NCBI GenBank assembly: GCA_945883495.1
Contig: CAMCXS010000009.1
Location: forward strand, 1-64,000
DNA length: 64,000 bases
Origin: Akkermansia muciniphila
GTDB taxonomy: Bacteria; Verrucomicrobiota; Verrucomicrobiia; Verrucomicrobiales; DEV007
Direction: 5' to 3'
The stretch's first letter is position 1. Each line of letters starts with the position of its first letter. The translations under genes were made by a program, and so were the position numbers. Positions 29,625 to 48,770 of this stretch are shown here, in pieces. A model generated the notes under the pieces. It saw only the letters and a program-made list of their open reading frames with translations. It was not told the origin of the DNA and did not search any database.

Positions 29625-29880
29625 ACCCCCGGTTATTCATGGGGAACCCCTTCGGGGTTGGTCGTTCGGTTTGATCGCGGTCCCGGGGGTCGATTGACCC
29701 CCGGTTATTCATGGGGAACCCCTTCGGGGTTGGTCGATCGGTTTTATCGTGATTCCGGGGGTCGATTGACCCCCGGCTATTCATGGGCAACCCCTTCGGG
29801 GTTGGTCGTTCGGTTTGATCGCGTTCCCGGGGGTCGATTGACCCCCGGCTATGCATGGGAAACCCCTTCGGGGTTGTTGG
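29625..29880. repeat. REP array: 72-base tandem units, three full and one partial
   Basis: Units begin at 29,625, 29,697, 29,769 and 29,841, an exact 72-base period. Each holds hairpin AACCCC-ttc-GGGGTT, and across the unit joins the stem CCGGGGGTC-gatt-GACCCCCGG. The last unit stops 16 bases before the hsdR start. Since 72 is a multiple of three, frames stay open and create repeat proteins that should not be annotated. Confidence 0.92.
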
Positions 29881-29896
29881 GCGGTGCAATGTTGTG

Positions 29897-32800: not shown

Positions 32801-33178
32801 TTCTCCCGGGCCCTCTTCGGTGCGCTCAAGGAGCAGATCGAGGCGGGGGAGGCGCCGGAACCACAAAGGGAGGCAGATGATCCCTTTCGGGTCCAGTTGC
32901 CAGCGCCGGGATCATTTGGCGAACGCCGGACTGGCGCAACCCGGGCCGAGGACGATCTGCTCGCCGAGGCCGCCTGCACCATGGAGGAAATCATCCGCCG
33001 CCACGCCGTGGTCCGCTGGCGGGAAAACACGGACGCCCAGAACCGGATGCGGAATGATCTGGACGATTACCTCTTCGACCTGCAACAAACCCGGGGCATC
33101 ACTCTCACCTTGGCCCGAATGGACGAAATCATCGAAAGCGCCATCCGGATCGCGATGTTCCGGACGAACGATGTGTGA
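29897..33178 (+). CDS. hsdR: Type I restriction enzyme endonuclease/translocase subunit (HsdR)
   Basis: I chose the ATG at 29,897, because the upstream in-frame start at 29,855 lies in the REP array. The 1,093-residue protein has an N-terminal nuclease site of the PD-(D/E)xK kind, RRPDIVCFVNGIPFVVIECKRP being split as Asp at about residue 150 and Glu-x-Lys near 163. Then come helicase motifs: Walker A WHTQGSGKSLTM (about 340), VIVTDRIDLDEQI, the DEAD-type LVDESHRSQYG (about 440), YIGFTGTPLM, VDKLLTGFDAP and LLQAIARVNRLHPGK. The C-terminal part is helical, as in the HsdR family. It cuts foreign DNA after ATP-driven translocation. It is separated from hsdM by some 10 kb of cargo. Confidence 0.94.
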   Translation: MNPSFQESLISQIPALRTLQQLGYAYLTPEECAVERKGRFGRVLLENVLASQLRRLNRITFKGREVAFSEENIAKAVEALREIPFEGLVRSSEKVYDLLTLGKSLDQTIDGETKGFTLRFIDWHNPRNNSFHVTAEFEVERTGSHETRRPDIVCFVNGIPFVVIECKRPDEKDSLVQAMNQNIRNWQEDEIPHLFVFSQLVLGLNKNDGSYATTGTALKFWAKWREMQDVTAQVRALINSPLRPEEHAKLFKGAFAFARETFEAQMLDPREPSAQDRLLWSLCRPERLIELARQFILYDEGGAVKKVARYQQYFAIKSTLDRVRQRDVQGRRKGGVIWHTQGSGKSLTMVLLGKALAMDPEIRNARIVIVTDRIDLDEQITKTFRQCGKEPQQAKTGTDLISLLRDERVGVITTVLFKFETASKAAAELRELRDDLFVLVDESHRSQYGSANIRMQEALPGACYIGFTGTPLMKAEKKTADRFGGFIEPAYTIRDAVEDQAVVPLLYEGRHILQDVNEGPVDRMFEALCEGLTKEQQGDLKRKFAARDELNRLHSRLYLIAWDVSRHFAQQWKGTGFKGQLTAPGKKEALLLKGYFDQFGKVSTEVIISGPGEIENPEEHAVAEDDESVERFWKGMMAKYGTEKEYNRRLIDAFKKGEDPEIIIVVDKLLTGFDAPRNVVLYLARNLKGHTLLQAIARVNRLHPGKDFGYIIDYYGVVSELHDALELYSSLEGKFDAEDLEGTLTNVSEEIKKLPGLHDALWDLFKEIPNKKDEEAFELALEPKEARDEFYTRLWRFSRVLKLAASNLQWVMETAPALAKRYKDDAAFFQKLRASVKLRYAEEIDYRDYEKQIQKLLNTYVQAGEVIQVVEPVNIFEREAFEQEVEKAKSPRAKADTIANRTKKTITEKMEEDPFLYRKLAALLQQVIDDYKAERLNEAQYLAKVTEVMEQVRGGKTADGPACLKDRDFSRALFGALKEQIEAGEAPEPQREADDPFRVQLPAPGSFGERRTGATRAEDDLLAEAACTMEEIIRRHAVVRWRENTDAQNRMRNDLDDYLFDLQQTRGITLTLARMDEIIESAIRIAMFRTNDV

Positions 33179-33242
33179 GGAATTGCTCGTAGGATGGGCA
33201 TTCCTGCCCGTCCGAGTCACGTTCATGCGAAGGAAAATGGGA

Positions 33243-33314
33243 ACCACGGATGGCACGGATTTCACGGATAGTGGGGAGTTGATCGGATCCGTGCCCATCC
33301 GAGCGATCCGTGGT
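33243..33314. repeat. Imperfect palindrome ACCACGGAT ... ATCCGTGGT
   Basis: A 72-base segment whose ends are perfect inverted repeats of nine bases, with internal CACGGAT / ATCCGTG repeats. It lies between hsdR and the metallopeptidase gene, and contains a GTG that would be a false upstream start of that gene. Confidence 0.7.
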
Positions 33315-33336
33315 CTCCAACTCCACCTTTTGGCCC

Positions 33337-34041
33337 ATGGATGAATCCAACGTCACCATCGAAACTCCGTCCGGCCCGGCCACGCTGAAGCGGACGCGCC
33401 GCAAGACGCTGGCCATCAGCGTCCTCCCGGACGGCACGCTGGAGCTCATCGCGCCCGAAGCCGCTTCGCTCGATGCGATCCAAGCCAAGGTAGAAAAACG
33501 CCAGCGCTGGATCCGCGAACAACGTCGAGCGTTCGAAACGATGAACGCGGTCCGGCCGGCGCTGCGCTACGTCACCGGCGCCACCCACCGTTACCTCGGC
33601 CGCCAATACCGCCTGAAGATCACCTCCGGCCCCAAAACCCGAGTGGTCCTGAAAGGCGCCTATCTCCACATCGACCTGCCCGAGCCCACCGAGCCCAAAG
33701 TCGAAGCCGCGCTGGAAGCCTGGTATCGCGAGCGGGCCCAAGACCAATTCACCCGCCGCCTCCGGGCCTGGACCGAATGGTGCGAAATCCGGGGCCTGCC
33801 GCAACCCAAACTCTCGCTCCGCAACATGCCGAAACGCTGGGGCAGCGCCCACCTAGACGGCACCATCGCCCTAAATCCCCGCCTAGTTCGCGCGCCGTCG
33901 GCCTGCGTGGATTACGTGATCGCGCATGAGATCTGTCATTTGAAACATCCCGGGCATGGTCGGGAGTTTCAGGGGTTGCTGCGGATGATCATGCCGGATG
34001 CGGAGGAGCGGAAGCGGCGGTTGGAGGTTGGGGAGTGGTGA
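33337..34041 (+). CDS. YgjP/M48-type metallopeptidase downstream of hsdR
   Basis: The ATG at 33,337 is preferred over a GTG at 33,310 that sits in a palindromic repeat. The 234-residue protein matches the YgjP/DUF45 family (PF01863). It has RKTLAISVLPDGTLELIAPE (about residue 22), WGSAHLDGTIALNPRLVRAP and the zinc motif YVIAHEICHLKHPGHGREF (about residue 190), an HExxH site with a distal His. Genes of this family are commonly found beside hsdR in type I systems, where their role is unknown. Protein or peptide cleavage is inferred from the motif. Confidence 0.88.
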   Translation: MDESNVTIETPSGPATLKRTRRKTLAISVLPDGTLELIAPEAASLDAIQAKVEKRQRWIREQRRAFETMNAVRPALRYVTGATHRYLGRQYRLKITSGPKTRVVLKGAYLHIDLPEPTEPKVEAALEAWYRERAQDQFTRRLRAWTEWCEIRGLPQPKLSLRNMPKRWGSAHLDGTIALNPRLVRAPSACVDYVIAHEICHLKHPGHGREFQGLLRMIMPDAEERKRRLEVGEW

Positions 34042-34850
34042 AATCAACAAATCAACGGCGCCCTTCCAGGCCGTGGCACCCTAGGCCGACACGCCAACTT
34101 CCGCCTGCAACCGCCGAAACGCGTCAAGAGCTCCGGTCGCCGCAGATCGAGAAGGGTTTGCATCCAACATCCAACCACCAGTGAAGTTACAGTCACTTTG
34201 TCCACAGCAGCTGGGCGACCGCGGCTTCAATTACAGTTATCGTGCTCGCTAGGGTCGGCGTCGTCAGAAGGATCATCGTGAGTGCGAACTCAGAAGGAGG
34301 GGGCCGCGGCCGGACGCCCTTAGCAACTCCAACAGGCAACCTTTTAAAGCTATCACCACTCTATGTAGCGAATAAAGAGAATTGCCATCGTCCGTCAGCT
34401 CAACATTAAGCGAGCAAGAAAGAATCAACTGTTTTCGGACGAAGTTCATGCATGTGTCTGTGAGGGGGGCGGGTATGCCTGAATACCCTTGGACGCGTTC
34501 ACTGTCCCGATAATTCTGTACGGAGCGGGGATCGAGACCACTTCATCGAAACGTTGCTTCCTAGGCGATTACACGGTGTTGTCGTTAGTCGGGTGCGAAT
34601 GCCGAATGCCTTCGCGGTGGGTTCTTCGAAGTTATCCGCCCAGTAGCTCTCCAAATGTAGGCCATTCCCTGGACGTCGCTCTTGCTGTAGATCAAGGGAG
34701 GTGACTAAGGTAAACGAAATTGGGGAGGTCGTCGTAAAGGGGGTTGAGTTGGGCTGCATCGAGGCAGGGTTTGCCTAAACGAGCCGCCACCGAACCTAGT
34801 TCGCCCCGCTGTATTCTAGCGGGGCGAACCGACAAATCGCGATGTGCTTC
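34042..34850. other. Gene-free stretch of about 800 bases
   Basis: No reading frame here looks like a gene. A minus-strand frame before 34,700 ends LGKPCLDAAQLNPLYDDL and may be a fragment, but it has no start and no match I know. A strong hairpin lies at the right end (34,799-34,829). The composition is less GC-rich than the restriction island. It marks the border between the two accessory regions. Confidence 0.55.
34799..34829. terminator. Perfect 12-base hairpin after the 34,851 gene
   Basis: GTTCGCCCCGCT and AGCGGGGCGAAC pair perfectly around a seven-base loop (GTATTCT). It lies 21 bases past the stop of the minus-strand gene that ends at 34,851, where a terminator is expected, but no T run follows, so it could instead be a palindromic repeat or an mRNA-stabilising stem. 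Confidence 0.5.
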
Positions 34851-35537
34851 CTACTTACAAGAACACTCTCTCTGAGCATTCGCTACAGAGATCGGTAGAT
34901 CAACGCAGTAGTCCCACGACTTCTCGATGCCCCACTTTCCCACCGTGACCTTGCCGCAAATCTGCCGCGGGGCGCGGAAACATACTTCGAGTCGCGCCCA
35001 ACCGATCTCCCAGACTGTGTGACAATCTTGCAATGGCACGCAAATGGGGAATCTCTCGTTGAACGACGCCGATGCTCCGAAGATCTCGATCCGTGCCCAA
35101 ATGTGCGCATCAACGCAAGCCTTGCCGTCGCTGATGCGGGGGTTCTCCAGGGTAATGCCCCCATCGACACCCCGCAGTTCGGCCTGCCGAAGAATGTCCT
35201 CGATAGTACCGGAACTTGGCGTGAGCGCAGTGGAAGTCGCCGAGTATGGAACTTTCCAAACCAGATCGGTTGCCTCTGCACAAGTGTCCTCTGCTTGAGG
35301 AGGAGTTCCCTCTCCGGGAAGTGCGATTAGTATCGGCTGCGGTAGACGCCGACAGTAGGAATTAACGGCGAAGGCGCGAACCGCAACGAAAGCTAGCGAT
35401 TGCCCCTCGAGACCGATTGATCGTCCGTGGGAGCTTACGCTTAAATTGGGCACAAATTGCCGTCCGTAGACTCGGATCGACAGACCTTCATTCAGGAAAG
35501 CTTCCAAGCTATATGTGTTTTCATTTTGTCCAATCAT
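34851..35537 (-). CDS. Hypothetical cysteine-rich protein
   Basis: I do not recognise this 228-residue protein. It has many Cys residues, several in pairs near the end (CFRAPRQICGK, then ECSCK). It has no signal peptide, no long membrane helix and mixed strand-like composition (VDGGITLENPRISDGKACVDAHIWARIEIFG). It begins 30 bases after the cut-off CYTH gene on the same strand, so the two could have been one operon. Base composition is lower in GC than the flanking region 5. It may be a cargo gene or the remains of one. Confidence 0.45.
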   Translation of the reverse strand: MIGQNENTYSLEAFLNEGLSIRVYGRQFVPNLSVSSHGRSIGLEGQSLAFVAVRAFAVNSYCRRLPQPILIALPGEGTPPQAEDTCAEATDLVWKVPYSATSTALTPSSGTIEDILRQAELRGVDGGITLENPRISDGKACVDAHIWARIEIFGASASFNERFPICVPLQDCHTVWEIGWARLEVCFRAPRQICGKVTVGKWGIEKSWDYCVDLPISVANAQRECSCK

Positions 35538-35567
35538 ATGAGTTATGCTGTTATGGTTGTTCTGTAT

Positions 35568-36056
35568 TCAACGAAACACTCCGTTTCGGTGAAATTGGGC
35601 TAGTCTACGGTTGCGAGTTCTTCCACCAGAGGGGCTTTGGCGACTGAGACTTGGGTGCGTGCGGCATGTTGTGTCCTTCTTGTGGATTGGGCGGTTCTTA
35701 TTAGTTTTGACCACGCCGCTGGGGAGCGTTTCCAGGACTTCATTCGCCGCGGAGAGGTATCGGTCGGGAGAGCGGAATTTGAGGTTCAGCTGCGTCTTGC
35801 CGTCGTTTTCCCGGCGCACCCGCAGAGCGAGGCTTCGCTGGGAAAGTGCCATGTCCTTGGTATCAAGGTACGAGGTCTTGCGGACTTTCTCTGCATCGTT
35901 TTGAGGCTCCACGGCGTCCTTGCCCTCACCGCCAATGACACGCAAGAGATGCTCCGTAAGAGCCAACACGGCGTTGTAGCCTGCCACGCGGTCGACGAAC
36001 CGATCGACATTCAACAGGAGCTTGTATTCGCGCGATTTAATGGGGCGATTGGACAT
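35568..36056 (-). CDS. CYTH-like domain protein, apparently cut off
   Basis: Residues 1-105 look like the N-terminal half of a CYTH (triphosphate tunnel) domain: REYKLLLNVDRFVDR, then TSYLDTKDMALSQRSLALRVRRENDG and TQLNLKFRSPDRYL. The family reads phosphates with alternating Glu/Lys/Arg on strands, and the YLDT...LALRVRR block is a usual feature. After about residue 110 the sequence turns into a basic, low-quality tail (PIHKKDTTCRTHPSLS), with no further CYTH strands. The most likely reading is a frameshift or replacement of the second half, so an active tunnel enzyme is unlikely. Confidence 0.5.
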   Translation of the reverse strand: MSNRPIKSREYKLLLNVDRFVDRVAGYNAVLALTEHLLRVIGGEGKDAVEPQNDAEKVRKTSYLDTKDMALSQRSLALRVRRENDGKTQLNLKFRSPDRYLSAANEVLETLPSGVVKTNKNRPIHKKDTTCRTHPSLSRQSPSGGRTRNRRLAQFHRNGVFR

Positions 36057-36159
36057 GGAGGAAATCGTGCGGGGCTGCCGGAGGTCCGTAGACCTGCACG
36101 CGGAGTTTTGATAACCGCTGGCTAGGTGGTCTGTCTATCGTCCGTTACGACGAATTTGC

Positions 36160-37380
36160 TTGTTTTTCCTACGGCTTGAGCCAATCAGAGAGCTTGTGTC
36201 CTCATCCTGCACGCTCACTGCGAAGCTGACTGTTCCTCTGACCGGCTTGCAGCGCGCCGTGACCCGGGAAGCGGTGTGGGTGGCGGCGCTTGAGTTAGTC
36301 AAGACTGCCCTGCCGCTGGACGATGTGATCTTTGTCCTGGTGGACGATCCCACAGCGCCGGTGTATCTGCGATCCACGGCGGCTGTGAGAGACTGGGAGC
36401 GGTTTGCGGGCCTGAGTTTGTCCCGGGAGGGATCCTCCCTTAGGGAGGGAGCACTTGTGGAAACCATCGATCGGGACCTTGGATCGAACTGCCGATGGCG
36501 GCGTGTTTGGGTGGAGGAGATTTTGGAACCGATGGGATGGCATTTTGGGATGTACCTGCGCTTCCGGAGTGGTGCGGGGAGAGCGGCGCAAGGCGGGCTG
36601 ATGGGGCTGCGGGAAGCCTCACGCGGGAAGTTCACTTTGGCGGAAATGGAGATTGCCACCCACTTGCAGCCCATGCTGGAGGCCGCGGTGCGGCGGGCGG
36701 GCGAACAGGAACGGCAGGAGGCCACCCAATTTGCCTTGCAGCATCTGGTGCGGACGTTGCCATGGCCCGTGGCTGTGGTTGGCGCCGAAGGGGATGTGGT
36801 GTTTAGCAATCGGGCCGGTCGCGAAGCGATGGCGGCTTGGAGTCACGGGGGGATTGCGTTTCTCCGAACCTTGAAGCCCGGCGGGGACCTTCCGCAGGAC
36901 CTTCAGGCCACCTGCCGGGCGCTCGCTTCGGAGTGGAGGGATCGGAAAGGTGGTTCGGCCCGGAGTAGTGCCCGGAAGGTAACGCTGAATCACCAAAGTG
37001 ATCCATCGTTTCGTGCGGAAGTGGAACTCGTGGAAGCTCCGCCTGGGGGCGGAGCGCAGTCCTCCTTCGTGATTATCTTCTCCATCCCGGCGCCTCGCCA
37101 CGCGGAGTGCCAGAAGGCGCTGGCGGCGCTGCCGAGGCTGACCAGCGCCGAACTAGGCGTGGTGCGGCTCGCGGCCGCAGGCGAGGCGAATGGAGAGATT
37201 GCCGTGAAACTGGGGGTAAGTCTGAGCACCGTGCGGACGCACTTGCGCAATGTTTTCAAGAAGCTAGGAATCAGCTGCCGGTCCCGGCTTGCGCCGTTGA
37301 GTGAGGTGTTGGGAAAGTCGTCGCCCGGGGTTGGCACCGGGAAGGCTGCTACCGGCGACGGGGAATCCGCGCAGCCGTGA
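36160..37380 (+). CDS. LuxR-type transcription regulator with a PAS-like middle domain
   Basis: The 406-residue protein ends in a LuxR/FixJ helix-turn-helix (about residues 325-385): LTSAELGVVRLAAAGEANGE, then IAVKLGVSLSTVRTHLRNVF and KKLGISCRSRL. The middle (LVRTLPWPVAVVGAEGDVVF, about residues 195-215) looks like a PAS fold, and residues 40-150 resemble a GAF-like sensor domain. No receiver domain is present. The TTG at 36,160 and a GTG at 36,196 are both possible starts; the ribosome site does not settle it. It probably responds to a small ligand and controls genes of unknown identity. It sits beside IS debris. Confidence 0.75.
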   Translation: MFFLRLEPIRELVSSSCTLTAKLTVPLTGLQRAVTREAVWVAALELVKTALPLDDVIFVLVDDPTAPVYLRSTAAVRDWERFAGLSLSREGSSLREGALVETIDRDLGSNCRWRRVWVEEILEPMGWHFGMYLRFRSGAGRAAQGGLMGLREASRGKFTLAEMEIATHLQPMLEAAVRRAGEQERQEATQFALQHLVRTLPWPVAVVGAEGDVVFSNRAGREAMAAWSHGGIAFLRTLKPGGDLPQDLQATCRALASEWRDRKGGSARSSARKVTLNHQSDPSFRAEVELVEAPPGGGAQSSFVIIFSIPAPRHAECQKALAALPRLTSAELGVVRLAAAGEANGEIAVKLGVSLSTVRTHLRNVFKKLGISCRSRLAPLSEVLGKSSPGVGTGKAATGDGESAQP

Positions 37381-37394
37381 AACGGCCCAAGTCC

Positions 37395-37550
37395 GCGTTT
37401 CCAATGGTAAACAGTGGGCGCTGACACGCCGATCCGCCTGGCGAACGTTGCCACGGACATTCCCGATCGCTGGAACTCGTCTACCAGAGTGGCAATCTCG
37501 GCAAGGTCGCAGCGTTTTCGGGATTTACTGCCAGACACGCCAGAACCCAT
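37395..37550 (-). pseudogene. IS66-type TnpA accessory gene, 5' fragment
   Basis: The minus strand from 37,550 encodes about 50 residues. LVDEFQRSGMSVATFARRIG and VSAPTVYHWKRGLG form a helix-turn-helix as in the TnpA accessory proteins of IS66 elements. After that the reading becomes meaningless, because it runs antisense into the LuxR gene. No IS66 ends or other IS66 genes are present, so this is the trace of an old insertion. The LuxR stop is only 14 bases from its end. Confidence 0.6.
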
Positions 37551-37600
37551 GCCTCACTTCACCGCGCTGTCAGCACGGCTTGGCCGAGCGATTGCGCTAG

Positions 37601-37735
37601 GCCGAGATCTTGCGCGTCGCCCTGGACAATCCGCATCCAGAGGCGCGGGAGTTTGCCCTCCAGTCGCTCTGGGAGTTCGAAGCCGAGGGAGCTCCCTACT
37701 CCCGGGACATCCTCGCAGAGTGGCGGCGGCGTTGA
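37601..37735 (+). pseudogene. C-terminal fragment of an unidentified protein
   Basis: Between a TAG (37,598-37,600) and a TGA (37,733-37,735), the plus strand gives 44 residues, including LRVALDNPHPEAREFALQSL, WEFEAEGAPYSRD and ILAEWRRR. The pattern resembles one HEAT-like helical repeat at a protein end. There is no start codon or upstream remainder, so I read it as a leftover fragment. It could be chance. Confidence 0.3.
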
Positions 37736-37890
37736 CTCTTCTTCGCGTTTGAAATCGTCGAGTGCCCTAAAGTCGCGTCACCGTCCACCAGTATCCTCCC
37801 CTCTCTCCCAGAGATCGGGTGCGAATTTGACTGGTGGACCGAGGCGAGATTGATCTGGGGAGAACCGATCAATCAGTGATTGGGTCATTC

Positions 37891-37922
37891 CCTCTGTGCT
37901 CCCGGTGTCCTCTGTGGTGAAG
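37891..37922 (-). repeat. Dispersed repeat TTCACCACAGAGGACACC..., copy 1
   Basis: A 32-base segment that is the reverse complement of the one at 48,878-48,909 apart from a few bases. This kind of short repeat is scattered in intergenic DNA. The two copies stand at the ends of the patatin-to-uS9 block, in opposite orientation. Confidence 0.65.
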
Positions 37923-38134
37923 AACTACCATTTCCACAAGAGAGACCAGATTCTACCCGTCCTTCTCGTTGGCGAGTGGAGAAACAGCAGACACGCCAAG
38001 TGGGGCTGAAGCATGCAAGAGTCCTCACGAGCCCCAAGCTCAGCAATTTCAGCTCCTCAAACCATTTCGCGAGAACTACGCGTTTTCACGAGTTGTCACT
38101 TGCACTCGTCGATTCGCCTGCCTACCAAATTCGC

Positions 38135-40780
38135 ATGGCGGATGACGTCCTGATCGAGGGTTCTGAATTGGCTGGCTTGAGAACAGGGCTCCGGGAAGTC
38201 CTCCCAAAGTTTGGCGATGGCAAAAGCCCTCTAAACGCCCAACGGATCGACGTTGAATCCTTCAAGCGTTCGGACCGGTCCGCAGCCTGGGAAATCTACA
38301 TCGAGCTTTCCACTCGGGTCATCTCCAAAGAGCTTCCGTTTCGGGACGGGGAAGAGAAGTCTGCGCTCGATAGCGTCTACGCCTTCTTCAAGGAAGCTCG
38401 GGCCACCCTGCGCAAGCATCCCGGCGCCGTCCTGACAGCGGTAATCGTCACCAGCCTACTCAATACCGTCATTCGGAAGTTTACCGCCAAGTGGCACGCT
38501 CTCTCCGTCGCCGGTCAATTGAGCGGAAACGACGACTGTCGGCGTTCATTCCGTTCGGAGCTTGAGTCCCTTCAGATGAAGATCGCTCCCTACGGGGAAG
38601 CGCTGCGCGTCTTAGCGGGCGACTTTCCTCCGCCGCTAGCGGAGTCAAAAGAGCTGACTGATGAACAGCCGTCTGAAAGTCCCCAGAAAACAGCGGACTC
38701 ACCACCTCAGGTGTCTACAAAGCGAAAGCCAGGCATTCCTCTCAATTTCTCTGAGGTAGAAAGCCGTGAGCTGAAGCGAATTCAAGAGCGAAGGGGAAAA
38801 GCCACGAAATTCAACCTGTGCGGCGTGAGTTTTTCTGGTGGGGGAATCCGGGCTGCAGCTACTTGTCTGGGATTTGCTCAGGGGCTGAAACACTTGTGGC
38901 AGGATGTCGATTACCTCTCAACCGTGTCTGGGGGAGGGTATATCGGAGCTCTGATCCATCAAGAGCTGAATCAGACGATACCCCGCGCTGAGGATGAGCC
39001 ATTCCTAAAGGGGGCAGCCCAGCACGCTCGAGATAATAGCAACTACCTCACCCGCTCAGTTTGGGATTGGATCGCACTCTCCTGCTGGATTCTTTACGGA
39101 CTGTTCCTTAATCTGTTCTTTTTCGTCTGGATGGGCGTGATCGGAGGGTGGGCGATCTCTTGCATCGAGAACCTCCCCATCGATCCTGCCATCGCACGCC
39201 CGTGGCTGGCAGGTGGCGCCGTTGCGATCCTCGGGGCCCTTCTCCTCCTGTCCTTGTGGATCGCTTCCCGGCTCGATCACCGCTTACCCTTCGCCGCTCA
39301 GGCCCTGCGGTTCCTAGCACGGGTGACGGCTTTCCCGCTGCTCATCGCACTCACCACTGCTGTAATCGTGTGGTTTGAGTTCTTTCAGACCTCAATGAGA
39401 GGCCCTGATCGATTCGTTGGCTTTTCATTTTCAAGCCAAAATCTGGCCTCCGTTTGCCTAGTCGGTGCGGCAGCTCTTTTTATCGGAGCGATGGTCTGGA
39501 GGTCCAATTGGTCGGGCTTCATTCAAATCCTTCTCGGAACCTTGCCTAGATTCATCGTCGTCGGCTGCGTTGTGGGGGGCGGTTATCTTTTTGACTGGAT
39601 CTTGCCGTTGCTCGACCGCCTGGATGTTCCCTTCCAAGCCTGTGATCCTTTGGTCAAGGCAGCTCTCTGCTTAGTCGTAGGCTTACTGGTTCCCGGTCTG
39701 TTCCGCGTGAACTGGGCTTCACCGCACGGTTTTTATCGGCGACGGCTGAAGCGCGGATTCTTGAATCGTAACAGACTCAGAAAGGTCAAGAAAGTATCCT
39801 GCGATGGGGTAACCGGGCCTTACCCGCTGTTCAATGCGACAGTCAATCTCCCCTTGCTGACCACGGAGCGGCTTTGGGACCGGCGCAGCGATTCGTTCAT
39901 CTTCTCTCCCCTGGCGTTTGGCAGTCGCGTCACAGGTTACTACACCGCTGACGATTTCGAAGCGCGCAACGGCGGCTTCGACCTCGCCAGTGCGATGGCT
40001 GTTTCGGGGGCTGCCTTCGCCCCAAACATGGGCAAACTGACCTTACCGTATGCTCGCAAAATGCTTTGCCTTTTTAACATTAGGTTGAGCTATTGGCTCA
40101 AGAAGCCCAGTTCATTCTGCCTTTGGCCCTGTCATCCGGGATATCTGATCCGTGACCTCATGGGTTGGTATGACGGAAGCGAGACCTATCTCAACGTCTC
40201 CGATGGGGGGCACTTTGAAAACCTCGGCCTCTACGAGCTCCTCAAGCGCCGTGTAAACTACATTGTCGCCTTCGATTTTCAGGCCGACCCGCTATGCCGG
40301 TGTGATGAGTTCGCCAAGCTGATTTGCTATGCCCGCAACGACTTCGGCGTGGATATCGACATCGATTGGAGCCCGCTCAAGCCAAATGAGAATGGGATCA
40401 GCTATCGCCACTTTGTTGTTGGACACATCTATTACCCTGACGACCCCACGCGCGTAAAACCGGGGATCTTGGTTTACATCAAACCGACACTCACCGGGAA
40501 CGAGGAACCGGACGTGAGGGCTTACAAAGTGATTAGCCCACAGTTCCCCTTTCATCCGCTGAGCGACCAAGTTTTCGATGAAATCCAGTTCGAAGCCTAC
40601 CGCAGCCTCGGTGAACACATCGCTCGAGATTTGATCAGGTGGGGAAGGAACGAACGAAGCTCCCCCACCGAGTCATCCAGCTTTGTTGCCGTTCTCTCGA
40701 AGTTAGAAGACAAGCTTGGTCCCGAGAAGCCTACTCCTGCAGCGCCACTAGAATCATCCCCAGATTCGCCCAATCTGTGA
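38135..40780 (+). CDS. Membrane patatin-like phospholipase
   Basis: I chose the ATG at 38,135 (MADDVLIEGSEL); longer readings cross a repeat. The 881-residue protein has the patatin oxyanion loop GVSFSGGGIRAA (about residue 230), the nucleophile elbow STVSGGGYIGAL (Ser near 265) and the dyad Asp in LNVSDGGHFENLGLYELL (about 690). Between elbow and Asp lie about 200 residues with six or more likely membrane helices (for example WIALSCWILYGLFLNLFFFVW). The first 220 residues are an unknown domain. Patatins of this sort act as membrane-killing effectors in several bacterial defence systems; here the role is inferred from context. Its 3' end overlaps the Nudix gene on the other strand by 50 bases. 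Confidence 0.85.
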   Translation: MADDVLIEGSELAGLRTGLREVLPKFGDGKSPLNAQRIDVESFKRSDRSAAWEIYIELSTRVISKELPFRDGEEKSALDSVYAFFKEARATLRKHPGAVLTAVIVTSLLNTVIRKFTAKWHALSVAGQLSGNDDCRRSFRSELESLQMKIAPYGEALRVLAGDFPPPLAESKELTDEQPSESPQKTADSPPQVSTKRKPGIPLNFSEVESRELKRIQERRGKATKFNLCGVSFSGGGIRAAATCLGFAQGLKHLWQDVDYLSTVSGGGYIGALIHQELNQTIPRAEDEPFLKGAAQHARDNSNYLTRSVWDWIALSCWILYGLFLNLFFFVWMGVIGGWAISCIENLPIDPAIARPWLAGGAVAILGALLLLSLWIASRLDHRLPFAAQALRFLARVTAFPLLIALTTAVIVWFEFFQTSMRGPDRFVGFSFSSQNLASVCLVGAAALFIGAMVWRSNWSGFIQILLGTLPRFIVVGCVVGGGYLFDWILPLLDRLDVPFQACDPLVKAALCLVVGLLVPGLFRVNWASPHGFYRRRLKRGFLNRNRLRKVKKVSCDGVTGPYPLFNATVNLPLLTTERLWDRRSDSFIFSPLAFGSRVTGYYTADDFEARNGGFDLASAMAVSGAAFAPNMGKLTLPYARKMLCLFNIRLSYWLKKPSSFCLWPCHPGYLIRDLMGWYDGSETYLNVSDGGHFENLGLYELLKRRVNYIVAFDFQADPLCRCDEFAKLICYARNDFGVDIDIDWSPLKPNENGISYRHFVVGHIYYPDDPTRVKPGILVYIKPTLTGNEEPDVRAYKVISPQFPFHPLSDQVFDEIQFEAYRSLGEHIARDLIRWGRNERSSPTESSSFVAVLSKLEDKLGPEKPTPAAPLESSPDSPNL

Positions 40781-41860: not shown

Positions 41861-42697
41861 TTACGGAGGGGTGGATTTTGCCGGACCGGGGACCAAACAA
41901 ACACGGAATCCCTGGTACCTGACCCGGTCGGACGGATGCCTCCCGTTCCGGAAGGCGGAACGGCACCCCCAGGCCGCGTAGAGCCAGGACCCACCACGGA
42001 ACACGCGAAGCGGGTCTTCGGGATGCTCGTGGATTTCGTTCACCGGATCCTCGACACCGTCGGCCCGTTTCGCATACGCGGCGGAATCCCAGGCATCCTG
42101 GCACCATTCGTCGACGTTCCCGTGCATATCGAACAGGCCAAAACCGTTGGCGGACTCGGCACCTTTGCCCCGGACCGCGTGCGTGCTTCCTTTCTGAAAA
42201 TCTTCACCGTACCAACCCACCGCGTCGAGCGCCCCAGTGCCGGACCCCTTCCAATAATCGGTATTGGTTTCCGCCCGGCAGGCCCGCTCCCATTGAGCCT
42301 CCGTGGGGAGGCAAGCGTGGCCATTGCGGAAATCACGCGGGAACCGGCGGCGGCAGCGTTCCGTGAGCCAGGCGCAAAAGCCGGCGGCCTCGTCCCAAGC
42401 CATGTTTTCCGCCGGATGATCGGGGCGGTCCAGAAAGTGATTCCGATGCTTCGGCTTCCAGCAGGCGAACTGCGCCTGGGTCACCGGAGTTGCCCCGAGC
42501 CAATAATCCCGGGTGAGGATCACGCGATGGACGGGTTGTTCCGCAGTCGATTCGAGCGAACCCATCCGGAACCCCTCGGGCCCGGTCGCCGGGATATGGC
42601 GGAAGCGCATCTCCACGCTCCCCCAATCCTTGGCCGTGGGGAGGCGGATGACGTGCGGTTTGAGGATGCGGTGGCACCGGCGGTCCTGGGGAGCCAT
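41861..42697 (-). CDS. FGE-like (formylglycine-generating-enzyme fold) protein 1
   Basis: I chose the ATG at 42,697. The 278-residue protein has the FGE-sulfatase fold (PF03781): RFRHIPATGPEGFRMGS, then ATPVTQAQFACW, LPTEAQWERACRA, NGFGLFDMHGNVDEWCQD and FRGGSWLYAAWGCRSAFRN, ending YQGFRVCLVP. True formylglycine oxidases use two Cys, three and eight residues after GGS. Here the first is Tyr and only the second is Cys, so this is probably a binding or regulatory domain. It is paralogous to the gene at 45,878 and divergent from the LRR-Roc-COR-TIR gene, with 117 bases between the starts. Such FGE-like proteins accompany many STAND and Roc-type systems. Confidence 0.85.
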   Translation of the reverse strand: MAPQDRRCHRILKPHVIRLPTAKDWGSVEMRFRHIPATGPEGFRMGSLESTAEQPVHRVILTRDYWLGATPVTQAQFACWKPKHRNHFLDRPDHPAENMAWDEAAGFCAWLTERCRRRFPRDFRNGHACLPTEAQWERACRAETNTDYWKGSGTGALDAVGWYGEDFQKGSTHAVRGKGAESANGFGLFDMHGNVDEWCQDAWDSAAYAKRADGVEDPVNEIHEHPEDPLRVFRGGSWLYAAWGCRSAFRNGRHPSDRVRYQGFRVCLVPGPAKSTPP

Positions 42698-42814
42698 GGA
42701 TGGGAGATCTGTTATCGCTGAGGCGGGGCGTTGGCAATGGTTCTGTGGAGTGCTACGTCGAGCGGCAGCACGCCAGATCTTGAATTCCCGCCTGACCGGC
42801 GGTATCACCCTGGC

Positions 42815-45730
42815 ATGAAGTCCGCCGCGACACCGTCCGAGCCCAAACCGGTCGCCCGCTACTATCCGGACGCGAGCACCTGGGAGGATTGGAAAGCCGT
42901 TTCCAGCGCCGCTCGGCACGGAGTCACCACCTTGACGATCGGCAAACTGCATAAGGAATGGGAAAACTTCGGCGCCTTGCCGTCCCTGAACGATCATTTC
43001 CAGGATCTCCGCCATCTCCATCTCTGGGGTCTCCAAGGCCTGACCCAACTGCCGGTCCTGCCCAAGGATTTGCTGACGCTTGACATCCAGAACTGTCCGG
43101 ACCTCAAGACCCTACCGGAACTCCCCGGCGGTTTGCGTTTCCTGGTCCTCCACAACCTGCCCGCCCTGACCGGCGGGCCCAATCCCGGTCCGTTGGAGGC
43201 CATGGAGGAAATTTCCGTGACGAACTGCCCGGAGCTGGAGGACGGCTGGCTCTACAATCTGACGCATCGCGCGGCTCATGTCCGCAAGATCAACCTTTCC
43301 GGTTGCGCACGCTTGACCAAAATCTGGCAGTGGTCCGATCAACTCGTCGATCTCCGCCTCTCGGGGTGTCCTGAGCTGGACGCCACCTTCCCGGAAAAGG
43401 CCTGGCCTGCCACCCTCTACCGGCTCCACCTGCGCGGCGCGGTGAAGCTCTCTTCCTTTCCAGTCCCGCTCTCCACAGTGGATGATCTCGACCTGGGCGG
43501 AATGACCGCCTTGCGGGATCTGCCCGCCATGAAACACTGGCCGAGAACCCTACACCTCTACGGTTCTGCGATCCAGGTCCCCGTCCGCTCCGAACATGGC
43601 TCCGAGCCGGATGCAAATGTCTCCGAGGATGCCCAGGGCTACTTTGAAGACATCAAGGAGACGGGTCCCGGCCGGGTGGCGCGCTGCAAGATCCTCATTC
43701 TGGGCAATGGCCGAGCGGGGAAGACGGTCCTGAGGAGGGCACTTTTGGGGAACAAAGTGATAAAGGACAAGGAACCCGACACGACCCACGGAGTCGAGTT
43801 CGAGCCGTGGACCGGATTTCTGCCCAATGCAAAGATTCTAAGGGAACCTAATCCGCCCAAACCGCATGTCCACCTCTGGGACTTCGGCGGTCAAGAATTG
43901 TATCACAACACCCACCGGCTTTTCGTCAGCACCGGAAGCGTATTCATCCTGGTCTGGAATCCCAAGCAGGACGGAAAGCTGGTCAACGAGGACGGTGAAA
44001 CCCTCCGGCCGTTGGCCTATTGGATCGATTTCATCACGCGCACTTCGGATTTCGCGCACCCGAGGATTTTCCTGGTCTGCGCAGCGCACGCCGACAAGCG
44101 CGATGATCTCGAAGCCCGCTGGCGCGCCCAGGCCGGCGAACACGTGAGACGCGTCGAGAAATGTTACTACATCGATTCCATGGCCCCCGATGGGCATGAC
44201 GGTGATTTGTCTCTCTTGATTGAGGATCTCCGGACCGAAACCGGAAAGGTCATCGATGACCAAGGCACGAAGGTGCCCGCCTACTGGGAGATCGGCCTGG
44301 AGATGGTCGAGGGATGGGTGAAACAGATCCAAGCTGGCACAGGTCGCGATCTCCAACATCTGACCAAGGCGAAGTTCCAACAGCACTTGGAACAGCAGAT
44401 CGACAAGCAGAAGCGGCGCTTTCCGGAGCTAAAGAAGAAATGGCGGAAAAGCTTCCTGTTAACCCCCAAGCGGATCGAGCGGACCTTGCGCTTTCTCACG
44501 CACAGCGGCTGGGCTTACTTCAACTCCCGGTACCTCGGGGATTCGGTGATCATCGGCCAACGCTGGGCGCTCGACGGGATTTACACGCTGCTGCAACGCA
44601 CCGGTCCGGTGTTTGAATACCTGAAAACCACCGAGGGCCGCATCCGTCTCTCCGCCTTGGCGAAACTGGATGCGTGGGATGACGCGCAGAAGATCAACTA
44701 TACGAAACCGGAACAGGAGCTACTGCTCCAGTACGCCGAGGCCTGTCAATTGGTCTTCCCCATCCGCGATGCCAAGGAATCGTATTGGGGAGAGAAGGTC
44801 TACGCCGTCTTTGAACGCCTGCCCGAAGACGGGCTGGCCTGGGCGCTAGGCAGCGCGGTGCCGGTGCTGCCGATTCGCCCGGATCATCTCTATCGCCATC
44901 ATTGGCAACGCTTCCTGGCTGCGGTCGGGGAGCAGTATGGCGTCACCGCGGATTACGCGCAAAACGCGTTCCGGGTCACCACGGAAGACGGCCATCAGAT
45001 TTACGTTGGCTTCCACCTGGAAGAGTCCGGATATCGCGGCGGGATCGATCTCCAGGTCGCCGGGCCCAGAGCAGACGAGATAAAAGCCGGGTTCAAAGAC
45101 GTCATCGAGAAGACCGTCCAAGGCCACGGTGAGATCCACCTGACCGGGGCCGCAAAAGGAAAGAACGTGCCGAAAGTCTTCATTTCCTATGCACGGAACT
45201 CGGTACACGAGACGGATCCCGAGTGGTCCAAAACAATGGATCACATGGCACCAGTGCTCTGCTTGGACCGGTTGCTGAGTCCGCGGACGGACGAATTCAG
45301 GCTGTTGCTGGATCAAAACGAGATTCCCGACGGCGGATCCATCCCGCGCTTCATGATTGAAATCGGTCACGCGGACCGCATTATCGGCGTGTTCAGCTCC
45401 CGGTACTTCACCCGCCCCAATTGCATGTGGGAGCTGACGAAGATCGTCGAGAGCTGCGGGGGGAACATGGATCAATTCGCGAAACTGGTGATTCAGGTGC
45501 GCCACCTCTACAAAAAGGTCGATCCGAAAAGCGATTGGATCCATCGCGACAAGATCGAGAGCTACATCCACGACGGTAACTTGGAAGCTGTCCAGACCCA
45601 GTTTCCCGCACTGTCCCATAAGGTGCAGTCGTGGATGGAGAAACATCTCGGGATCGTATGGGATGAGACCAAAGAAGCCGAATTTGAAGCGCGGATCCTG
45701 AAGATGCTGAAGGATGGGGCATTGAAGTAG
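42815..45730 (+). CDS. LRR-Roc-COR-TIR protein
   Basis: The 971-residue protein is read from the ATG at 42,815. Residues about 45-255 hold leucine-rich repeats (LRHLHLWGLQGLTQLPVLP and similar). The Roc GTPase follows: P-loop ILGNGRAGKTVLRRAL (about 293), switch LWDFGGQELYHNTHRLF (about 355) and base-recognition VCAAHADKRDD. Residues about 480-760 form the COR dimerisation part (RTLRFLTHSGWAYFNSRYL). A TIR domain ends the protein (from about 785): PKVFISYARNSVHE, then NEIPDGGSIPRFMIEIGHAD and the catalytic-type Glu in PNCMWELTKIVE. TIR domains consume NAD or make signalling nucleotides. A sensor-GTPase-effector layout of this kind fits immune function, by analogy. Confidence 0.9.
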   Translation: MKSAATPSEPKPVARYYPDASTWEDWKAVSSAARHGVTTLTIGKLHKEWENFGALPSLNDHFQDLRHLHLWGLQGLTQLPVLPKDLLTLDIQNCPDLKTLPELPGGLRFLVLHNLPALTGGPNPGPLEAMEEISVTNCPELEDGWLYNLTHRAAHVRKINLSGCARLTKIWQWSDQLVDLRLSGCPELDATFPEKAWPATLYRLHLRGAVKLSSFPVPLSTVDDLDLGGMTALRDLPAMKHWPRTLHLYGSAIQVPVRSEHGSEPDANVSEDAQGYFEDIKETGPGRVARCKILILGNGRAGKTVLRRALLGNKVIKDKEPDTTHGVEFEPWTGFLPNAKILREPNPPKPHVHLWDFGGQELYHNTHRLFVSTGSVFILVWNPKQDGKLVNEDGETLRPLAYWIDFITRTSDFAHPRIFLVCAAHADKRDDLEARWRAQAGEHVRRVEKCYYIDSMAPDGHDGDLSLLIEDLRTETGKVIDDQGTKVPAYWEIGLEMVEGWVKQIQAGTGRDLQHLTKAKFQQHLEQQIDKQKRRFPELKKKWRKSFLLTPKRIERTLRFLTHSGWAYFNSRYLGDSVIIGQRWALDGIYTLLQRTGPVFEYLKTTEGRIRLSALAKLDAWDDAQKINYTKPEQELLLQYAEACQLVFPIRDAKESYWGEKVYAVFERLPEDGLAWALGSAVPVLPIRPDHLYRHHWQRFLAAVGEQYGVTADYAQNAFRVTTEDGHQIYVGFHLEESGYRGGIDLQVAGPRADEIKAGFKDVIEKTVQGHGEIHLTGAAKGKNVPKVFISYARNSVHETDPEWSKTMDHMAPVLCLDRLLSPRTDEFRLLLDQNEIPDGGSIPRFMIEIGHADRIIGVFSSRYFTRPNCMWELTKIVESCGGNMDQFAKLVIQVRHLYKKVDPKSDWIHRDKIESYIHDGNLEAVQTQFPALSHKVQSWMEKHLGIVWDETKEAEFEARILKMLKDGALK

Positions 45731-45877: not shown

Positions 45878-46675
45878 ATGGACAATCGGTGTCTACGCAA
45901 CCAGAAGCCATGGACCCTCATTCCTGAGGGGGGCTCCCGAGGTCGGGGGAAGGTTAAAATGACCTTCCGGCACATTCCCGCCACTGGAGAGCCAGGGTTT
46001 CGCATGGGTTTCCTGGGCAACGGCTATGAGCAGCCTCCGCACCGCGTCGTGCTGACGGACGATTATTGGCTCTTGGAAACTCCCGTAACCCAGAGGCAAT
46101 ACGCCTGCTGGAAGCCGGACCACCGGAACCATTTCCCGAACCGCCACGAGAATCCCGCGGAGAGCCTCTCCTGGAAAGATGCGATGGCCTTTTGCGATTG
46201 GCTTACAACGTGCTATCAAGGCAGGTTCCCGCGCGGGTTTGTCCGGGCCGGTCTTCCTACTGAGGCGCAGTGGGAATGGGCTTGCAGAGCCGGCACTCAG
46301 ACGGATTATTGGAGCGGAACCGGGACGGGGGCACTCGATGCCGTGGGCTGGTACGAGGAGCGGCTTCCAGCGGAAGAGGTCGATACCCGACCGGTCCGGT
46401 CCAAGGGGCTGGAGGCGGCCAACGGATTTGGTTTATGGGACCTCCATGGCAATGTCTTCGAGTGGTGCCTGGACTCTTGGGATTCGGAGGCCTATTCGCA
46501 CCGGATCGACGGTGTGCTGGATCCGCTTGTCGACGAAGCGGTGGGGAACCGGGTCGCAAGAGGCGGATCCTGGGCTGCGTCGGCGGCGGGCTGCCGCGCA
46601 AGTTACCGGTATCACTGGACCGCAACGGACGGGAGCCGTGAGATTGGCTTTCGGGTCTGCCTACGACGCAATTAG
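45878..46675 (+). CDS. FGE-like protein 2
   Basis: The 265-residue paralogue of the gene at 41,861 shares FRHIPATG, ETPVTQRQYACWKPDHRNHF, GLPTEAQWEWACRAGTQTDY, GLWDLHGNVFEWCLDSWDS and RGGSWAASAAGCRASYR. As there, the residue three after GGS is not Cys (Ala) while that eight after is Cys, so formylglycine synthesis is doubtful. The N-terminal 28 residues (NRCLRNQKPWTL) differ, and an internal ATG at MTFRHIP is an alternative start. It lies 147 bases after the TIR gene on the same strand. Two diverged copies on either side of one LRR-Roc-COR-TIR gene suggest variable partners or baits. Confidence 0.85.
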   Translation: MDNRCLRNQKPWTLIPEGGSRGRGKVKMTFRHIPATGEPGFRMGFLGNGYEQPPHRVVLTDDYWLLETPVTQRQYACWKPDHRNHFPNRHENPAESLSWKDAMAFCDWLTTCYQGRFPRGFVRAGLPTEAQWEWACRAGTQTDYWSGTGTGALDAVGWYEERLPAEEVDTRPVRSKGLEAANGFGLWDLHGNVFEWCLDSWDSEAYSHRIDGVLDPLVDEAVGNRVARGGSWAASAAGCRASYRYHWTATDGSREIGFRVCLRRN

Positions 46676-46795: not shown

Positions 46796-47368
46796 ATGTT
46801 TGACTATTTGGAGGATTCAATGACAGAGGATACCTTTATGGCGGTAGCGATGATCGAGCCATCCCCGATGGGCCTGAATCCCGGTGAACCTGGAACGGTG
46901 TTCGTTGTCTGCGGCCGGGGTGAAGACCAAGGGCTCTACGGAGGGCACAGGTGGTTCACGCTGATCTCCCAATGGGAGTTTGAGTGGCCAGATGAGAAGG
47001 GGAGCGTTTCAATCAATGATCTCAAGGTATGCAACGAAACCGGCAAGGTGATACCATTTGAGAAGGCACCTCAGTTACTTGCGCAGGGCTTTGGGCGTCG
47101 GTCGACTCATTGGAGGTATCCTTTGGATTTAACCCATTGCAGCAATAGCCTGAGGAATCCGGAACTCTCCGATGTTGCCACCATTTCAGATCCCGCGGGC
47201 AATCGTCTGCAAGTCAACGCTCCCGTAACCTGGGCCGTGCGGGCATCGACTAGGCTGGCGCCGGATGGTTCACCTTTTGAAGATCTGTGTGACAAAATCG
47301 TCAAAATAGAAGAGTTGACGCCAAGGTTGAGCGTGACTGTGCCGAGCAAGCTCAGCGGAGGTTTGTAA
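46796..47368 (+). CDS. Unknown protein, first gene of the uS9-fusion unit
   Basis: I do not recognise this 190-residue protein. It has no signal peptide or membrane helix. The sequence is mixed alpha/beta, with TVFVVCGRGEDQGLYGGHRW, then WFTLISQWEFEWPDE and GSVSINDLKVCNE, and it ends in strand-like residues (TPRLSVTVPSKL). The alternative ATG at 46,820 (MTEDTFMAVAM) may be the true start. Its stop is four bases before the next start, so the two genes are very likely co-transcribed. Both are visibly more AT-rich than the neighbouring housekeeping genes. Given the arrangement it could be a partner, inhibitor or sensor for the uS9-fusion protein; nothing in it shows which. Confidence 0.65.
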   Translation: MFDYLEDSMTEDTFMAVAMIEPSPMGLNPGEPGTVFVVCGRGEDQGLYGGHRWFTLISQWEFEWPDEKGSVSINDLKVCNETGKVIPFEKAPQLLAQGFGRRSTHWRYPLDLTHCSNSLRNPELSDVATISDPAGNRLQVNAPVTWAVRASTRLAPDGSPFEDLCDKIVKIEELTPRLSVTVPSKLSGGL

Positions 47369-47372
47369 TACC

Positions 47373-48239
47373 ATGAACTTTCTTTTCGAGACCATTGTGA
47401 ACGAGGTGAATGAAGCCACGTCTTACGAGGCATCGAGCAAAGATCTCGACGCGCATGTCCATGTCCTGGCACCGGATGGGGATATTCTGGTGAGCCGGGT
47501 TCGCAAACATGACCGCGAACTGTTGCGTGAAGTCGGCCTCATCGCCCTAACTCCGGAAACAGTTTTCCGAGTCGAGGATGAACCACATGGCCAAGCGTCT
47601 TTGATTTTGAGGTTGGAAACAGACCGCGGCATCAACTTTGGTCGAGTTGATCCGGACGAGTCGGACGTCGCTAAAGAGTGGTGTGAAAAAGTAAACGCAT
47701 TTCTTAAAAAAAAACTCCCGGCGCCGCAGGTAGTTAACAAAGCTAGGTTAGCTACTGCCGTATCGAATTCGCATCCTCAACCATCGGGAAAGGATCGGAA
47801 ACAGCTCAACGGTCACCGCGGCCAGCAACAACGCTCGTTGGGTTTGCCCTCTCCCGTGGTCTATAAGGCTAGGGGTGGTCGAAAAAAAGCCGTGGCTAGC
47901 GTACGATTGATCTCTGGCTTTGGTCAAAACATGGTGAATGGTAGGGATTTGGACGATTACTTCCCCACCTTCTCACTTCAGAGCCGAGTGCTGCGAGTGC
48001 TGCGGGAAGCCAACCGACTCCACACGTTTTACGTCAAAATCAAAGTCCACGGAGGAGGGATCAGCGGTCAAGCCGATGCCACCATTATGGGGATCGCCCG
48101 TGCTCTTGAGCAATTGGATCCCGCCATCCGCTCCGCGATTAAGTCGCACGGTTGGCTACGTCGGGATCCGCGAGCGAAGGAACGAAAGAAGTCTGGCCAA
48201 CCCGGAGCCCGCAAGAAATTCCAGTTCTCGAAGCGCTGA
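47373..48239 (+). CDS. Ribosomal protein uS9 domain fused to an unknown N-terminal domain
   Basis: Residues about 163-288 are a complete uS9 (S9) domain: GGRKKAVASVRLISGFG, VNGRDLDDYF, VHGGGISGQADA, IARALEQLDP, RRDPRAKERKKSGQ and a C-terminal FQFSKR. Typical S9 reads GRRK..ARV, VNGR..EYF, GGG.SGQAGAIRHGI, TRD.R..ERKK and ends SKR. The SKR tail is the part that touches P-site tRNA. The GAIRHGI block is changed to DATIMGI, so this is a diverged paralogue. Residues 1-115 are unknown (DAHVHVLAPDGDILVSRVR, FRVEDEPHGQASLILRL), joined by a Gln/Lys-rich linker. There is no rplM gene beside it, unlike normal rpsI. Nine A bases (47,706-47,714) end the first domain. Confidence 0.85.
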   Translation: MNFLFETIVNEVNEATSYEASSKDLDAHVHVLAPDGDILVSRVRKHDRELLREVGLIALTPETVFRVEDEPHGQASLILRLETDRGINFGRVDPDESDVAKEWCEKVNAFLKKKLPAPQVVNKARLATAVSNSHPQPSGKDRKQLNGHRGQQQRSLGLPSPVVYKARGGRKKAVASVRLISGFGQNMVNGRDLDDYFPTFSLQSRVLRVLREANRLHTFYVKIKVHGGGISGQADATIMGIARALEQLDPAIRSAIKSHGWLRRDPRAKERKKSGQPGARKKFQFSKR

Positions 48240-48467
48240 AAACAGTTTGGCTTGAGTTCTTGCGCGTGCCAGCGTCAACTTCTGCTCCTCGCACCGAGGC
48301 GATTTCAGGGGCTGTTACCTCGCCCTCGACAATGCGCTAGACGACTCGCCTAAACGTTTTTTGTCCGGAATCTCCCTCAAGGTCAGTTGATAGGCCGGTA
48401 GCTACTCGTTCTACAGTCGCGCGATTAGCCCGAGCGTTTCCACCACGCCCCGCGCGAGTTGCGCGAT

Positions 48468-48770
48468 GATGCCGGTCGGCTTTGCGGCGACGCCGGTGGG
48501 CTGTGCGGTGATGCCGGTGGGCTGCGCAGTGGCGCCGGTCGGCTTCGCGGTGACGCCGGTTGGCTTCGCGGTGACGCCGGTCGGCTGCGCGGTGACGCCG
48601 GTGGGCTTCGCGGTGACGCCGGTGGGCTTCGCGGTGACGCCGGTCGGCTTCGCGGTGACGCCGGTCGGCTTCGCGGTGACGCCGGTGGGCTTTGCGGTGG
48701 CGCCGGTTGGCTTTGCGGTGGCGCCGGTGGGCTTTGCGGTGATGCCGGTGGGCTTTGCGGTGACGCCGGA
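48468..48770. repeat. 21-base minisatellite (14 full units plus a partial one)
   Basis: Units of the form GACGCCGGTGGGCTTCGCGGT repeat with an exact 21-base period from 48,468 and differ at a few positions (GAC/GAT/GGC at the start; TTC/TTT/TGC in the middle). One unit translated reads PVGFAVT. It is GC-rich and lies outside any convincing gene. Confidence 0.92.

Follow-up and report, generated by a model that had tools for sequence, protein, structure and literature searches.

The closest described counterpart of the site studied here is the dnaX gene of Thermus thermophilus, for which slippage at a run of nine A, with stops in both shifted frames, is reported to give tau and gamma at a ratio of about 1:1 (PMC1088944, PMC5009743). 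Nine A is reported as an established slippage length (PMC1088944), in keeping with the preliminary description of this DNA, which had called such runs known slippage sites in bacteria, and the same source has Baranov et al. taking under-representation in genes as a sign that A9 slips in a given genome. Incidental poly(A) runs at lysine codons are also described, as runs avoided in bacterial genes (PMC1088944, PMC4363877). The A9 run in the 64,000-nucleotide stretch of DNA that we analysed (the window) has features of both kinds. As in Thermus, the run stands in frame, nearby stops close both shifted frames and the shorter product would be without the C-terminal part; unlike the Thermus run, which lies at seven-eighths, this one lies at 39% of the ORF, in an unrelated gene for which slippage is predicted. 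With the incidental runs it shares the nine A, the lysine codons and the out-of-frame stops, but it differs from them in its position at the join of two domains of a gene without relatives.

The A9 run and its host gene

The run lies in a gene for a 288-aa protein, in which an orphan N-terminal domain is joined by a linker to the ribosomal protein uS9. The features of this gene are as follows.

47373–48239, plus strand: ORF encoding the 288-aa fusion with its stop codon (weak, atypical codon score of 11.6)
47373–47714, plus strand: orphan N-terminal domain, residues 1–114 (no credible relatives; low-confidence strands, helix at 98–114)
47706–47714, plus strand: A9 run, codons 112–114 (AAA AAA AAA), also A_AAA_AAA in ribosomal-frameshift phase
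47715–47868, plus strand: linker, residues 115–165, predicted unstructured, containing both out-of-frame stops (frame reading, structure model)
47719–47765, plus strand: predicted RNA hairpin beginning 4 nt after the run (-18.3 kcal/mol, z -1.98)
47731–47733, plus strand: TAG closing the frame upon loss of one A (in-silico frame reading)
47735–47737, plus strand: TAA closing the frame upon gain of one A (in-silico frame reading)
47874–48236, plus strand: complete uS9 domain (PF00380 positions 1–121), the second uS9 of the genome, with 39 of 43 conserved columns kept
47882–47888, plus strand: A7 run, codons 170–172

The gene has two of the elements of a dnaX-type site: some nine A or T stand in frame, and nearby stops close both shifted frames. 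Read in silico, the gain of one A leads to ...KKK-TPGAAGS-TAA, with the stop seven codons on, while the loss of one A leads to ...KK-NSRRRR-TAG, with the stop six codons on. Sequence and frame reading agreed with the preliminary description on the run, its codons and both out-of-frame tails, and they bore out its proposal that a slip either way would yield the N-terminal domain by itself, here with a tail of 6–7 residues. Its placing of the run at the domain border agrees with the helix predicted at residues 98–114, although the confidence of the structure model is low there (pLDDT 29–49 by blocks of ten across the N-terminal domain). The second run to which it had drawn attention, A7, is present at the start of the uS9 domain but is of ordinary length, because the sampled genes (459 kb of sequence) contain 12 A or T runs of length 7. 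In the 64-kb window, the A9 run is the sole A or T run of length 8 or more.

We also considered that the true run might be A8 or A10, through assembly or consensus error or through variation in the population, in which case the N-terminal domain and uS9 would be two genes in different frames. Homopolymers are error-prone, in-frame TTG and GTG codons occur upstream of the uS9 domain, and in its own frame the linker has a poor codon score (-0.10 per codon). However, the linker stays open in frame for 51 codons, the other two frames score -0.20 and -0.18 against its -0.10, and inspection by eye revealed no good ribosome-binding site before the internal starts. We regard two separate genes as very unlikely.

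The C-terminal part of the fusion is a complete uS9 (residues 168–288; PF00380, E 1e-37, 129.7 bits against a cut-off of 22.5). The 39 columns that it retains are among 43 conserved at 95% or more, and the protein ends in KKFQFSKR, with the C-terminal SKR tail of uS9. Because of the retained columns, the second uS9 still looks like a working protein. Its highest identity, 61%, is to the canonical uS9 of its own genome, which is encoded elsewhere (contig C17, rplM-rpsI copy) next to a reading frame that we take from its letters to be uL13, and its end branch (0.87) is the longest among 104 rows. In the phylum sample, uS9 was found in 372 of 387 genomes, four of which had two matches: the genome of the window, G109, G386 and G392. 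The two matches of G109 look like one split gene, since they lie on different contigs and one is at a contig start; the second match of G386 is below the family cut-off, and that of G392 (L052) is a real domain. The codon usage of the fusion gene is atypical, with a score of -0.15 per codon for the uS9 part. The GC content of the gene is 0.535, and its lysine codons are AAA 14 and AAG 8 (AAA 7 and AAG 0 in the N-terminal domain alone), while the AAA share of lysine codons in the 459-kb sample is 0.359.

Searches with the N-terminal part found the fusion gene in one genome only, across both the order and the phylum. Residues 1–136 had no credible relative in 386 genomes of the order, where 10 genomes besides its own gave weak matches (E 6e-4 to 0.09), and no match at E ≤ 0.001 in 387 genomes of the phylum, its own excepted. 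The two best of the weak matches (L037 and L038) were rejected as antisense to long reading frames, which look transglutaminase-like and RHS-like, names that we presume from their letters. No match to the first 166 residues was found in GTDB contigs (pattern scan), plasmids (PLSDB) or viral contigs (IMG/VR), nor to residues 1–120 among PDB sequences, and PHROGs and PADLOC gave no useful match to the domain. The full fusion protein matched 19 records of a phage collection, nearly all to the uS9 domain alone and with best coverage of residues 103–288; in our judgement these records look like bacterial sequence filed under phages.

Coding A9 runs and the dnaX gene of the same genome

Counted over both strands, the genome (6.46 Mb) contains exactly 13 A9 runs, and none of A10 or longer. 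Genes were called by a codon-score gene caller trained on the 459 kb, that is, on the 64-kb window and 20 further stretches. Two of the 13 runs lie inside called genes, the uS9 fusion and dnaX, and the remaining 11 lie between chosen genes or in poorly scoring frames. Synonymous shuffling within the 326 sampled genes led us to expect, for sense runs of at least nine, 1.40 of A and 0.74 of T in the sample, or, scaled genome-wide, 19.7 A and 10.4 T (about 30). The observed numbers in genes were two A and zero T, a depletion of about 15-fold, which is approximate in that the fusion gene is itself part of the sample and atypical genes can escape the caller. Sense A or T runs of at least nine look avoided in the genes of this genome, and A9 is therefore likely to be slippery here by the criterion described for Baranov et al. 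(PMC1088944).

The other coding A9 run is at an in-frame KKK of locus L028 (G000:C16:6633-6643). From its sequence, we take this gene to be dnaX. Gain of one A gives KKKSSE-stop, and loss of one A gives KKK-stop. In a survey of 57 related genomes, dnaX was matched in 51, and 49 were examined (G043 and G055 were left out), of which 46 had a complete end. An in-frame A9 or A10 with both shifted frames closed was observed in three of these 46 ends (L154, L155 and L184); the three are all the genomes of the genus, and the arrangement occurred in none of the other 43 complete ends. The dnaX run is probably a tau/gamma slippage site of the Thermus type, here in Verrucomicrobiota, and its retention throughout the genus means that A9 slippage is tolerated, and probably used, in this lineage. 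Since coding A9 runs look avoided in the genome and a genus-conserved one is kept in dnaX, slippage at the A9 of the fusion gene is plausible as well.

The two runs are alike in that their length is equal within one genome, both encode KKK and both have the two shifted frames closed. They differ in conservation, the dnaX run being kept in three of three genomes and the fusion gene occurring in one, and in the distance to closure, which is immediate or three codons in dnaX as against 6–7 codons in the fusion gene. One genome with a genus-conserved A run in dnaX and one other A9 called coding offers a calibrated setting, and such a pairing could help to tell programmed from incidental slippage.

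An unpurged slippage-prone run or a programmed site

Although rare for its genome, the run is unsurprising for its gene, because, of 20,000 synonymous shuffles made with the codon usage of the fusion gene itself, 24% placed an A9 at KKK, and 35 of its 279 codon positions close both shifted frames as fast. The sample contains 18 KKK triplets, of which only the one in the fusion gene is written AAA AAA AAA, as against 0.83 expected from codon usage. In 3,000 synonymous shuffles of the fusion gene, both stops fell within seven codons in 3.1%.

We favour, with moderate confidence, the reading that the A9 is a slippage-prone site in a young, unpurged, AT-rich gene, that it probably slips in some transcripts, and that programmed use is needless to explain it. 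RNA polymerase would probably slip on the run in some transcripts, and the ribosome may do so too, though less, the products being mostly the 288-aa fusion together with some N-terminal domain of 119–121 aa ending in a short tail. The run would owe its presence to a young, AT-rich and fast-diverging gene whose slippery lysine codons are still unpurged. That this run slips, with what frequency, and that the slippage is without function are what we infer here. The GC content, the lysine codons of the gene compared with those of the sample, the 24% of shuffles with A9, the long end branch of its uS9, the lack of relatives of both the N-terminal domain and the 190-aa protein encoded upstream, and the end of synteny with genome G002 at 49103 favour an unpurged gene over a tuned one. 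In our reading, the host would be a second, diverged uS9 behind an orphan domain, within a TIR/FGE island. If slippage occurs, one frame would yield two proteins, the shorter of which ordinary annotation would overlook.

Three observations weigh against unprogrammed slippage and would fit programmed use: the small share of shuffles in which both frames close within seven codons, the position of the run exactly where the last predicted helix of the N-terminal domain ends, and the probable programming of the other coding A9, in dnaX, which raises the prior for this one. Under programmed slippage of the dnaX type, the cell would set the ratio of the free N-terminal domain to its uS9 fusion; the fusion could replace normal uS9 in the 30S subunit, carrying the domain with it, and the free form would act elsewhere in the TIR/FGE island. 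The dnaX-like layout within the same genome and the conserved columns and SKR end retained by the uS9 part are consistent with this. We nevertheless consider it unlikely, as the run arises readily in within-gene shuffles, 35 codon positions of the gene close both frames as fast, no homologue was found in which conservation of the run could be displayed, and the tails are longer than in dnaX. Distinctly unlikely is the specific arrangement in which slippage would set the share of domain-carrying ribosomes, with the one domain made both free and tethered to the ribosome via the spare uS9, in an immune-type island.

The predicted hairpin bears on a further possibility, namely that ribosomal -1 frameshifting at A_AAA_AAA, stimulated by this downstream structure, yields the short form. 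The run does provide a slippery heptamer (X_XXY_YYZ) in phase, and only 6 of 200 shuffles were as stable as the hairpin. However, 46 of 269 windows of the fusion gene are equally stable, so that a stimulatory structure above background was not found, and on an 86-nt window taking in the A9 run itself z came to only -0.94. No Shine-Dalgarno-like stimulator was seen upstream of the run by eye, and in E. coli A_AAA_AAA is reported to be far less shift-prone than A_AAA_AAG (PMC5009743). Frameshifting as the source of the short form is therefore highly improbable. A minus-strand terminator (hairpin followed by T9) was also considered and rejected, as no terminator-like site was found. The preferred reading remains slippage, without programming, at a run in a young gene.

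Genomic setting and a separate uS9 fusion

The genes upstream of the fusion are as follows.

41861–43048, minus strand: second FGE-sulfatase-domain protein (PF03781, E 3.6e-36)
42731–45730, plus strand: Roc-COR protein, with a TIR match below and an LRR match far below the Pfam cut-off
45878–46675, plus strand: FGE-sulfatase-domain protein (PF03781, E 1.9e-34)
46796–47368, plus strand: 190-aa orphan protein, directly upstream of the fusion

The two FGE-sulfatase proteins flank the Roc-COR-TIR gene and are encoded on opposite strands. Both FGE and TIR domains are reported as components of conflict systems of prokaryotes (PMC7159879, PMC10907252). The 190-aa protein was found in one of 74 genomes of the family, its own, and had no Pfam or NCBIfam match; its structure model has an overall pLDDT of 34.6. 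Beyond the second FGE gene lie a NUDIX gene and genes for a large protein that matches patatin weakly, a YgjP-like metallopeptidase and a type I restriction R protein; the last three are encoded in 29855–40780, a gene content suggesting a wider defence island. PADLOC gave only a weak bSEFIR match at the locus, and we do not claim membership in a known defence system. When the whole window was compared with 40 kb of a contig of G002, a genome of the same genus, synteny was observed from 49103 rightwards and none leftwards. A tandem repeat (48462–48769, 21 bp in 14.7 copies) lies just before the start of this synteny.

The host gene, in which a second uS9 follows an orphan domain within a TIR/FGE island, is odd in itself, and the same class contains another uS9 fusion. 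Genome G392 encodes a 692-aa protein (L207:8939-11017; G392:C67) with a diverged C-terminal uS9 domain, which covers PF00380 positions 1–94 (E 8.9e-17) and is without the C-terminal tail. Its gene overlaps the start of a gene for a 1571-aa protein that matches the PADLOC DruE models of Druantia (best E 5e-183). This fusion looks like a separate event, in a defence-type locus, because it matches the fusion of the window across the uS9 domain alone (32% over 100 columns). Among the papers listed in a literature search, none joined Druantia or DruH with ribosomal protein S9 (uS9), and a plasmid search with the G392 fusion protein gave three weak matches only, to the uS9 part. When the G392 uS9 domain was searched class-wide, 63 of 384 genomes gave a match; among those listed, the ones apart from G392 have the look of ordinary uS9, judged by the length of the reading frame.
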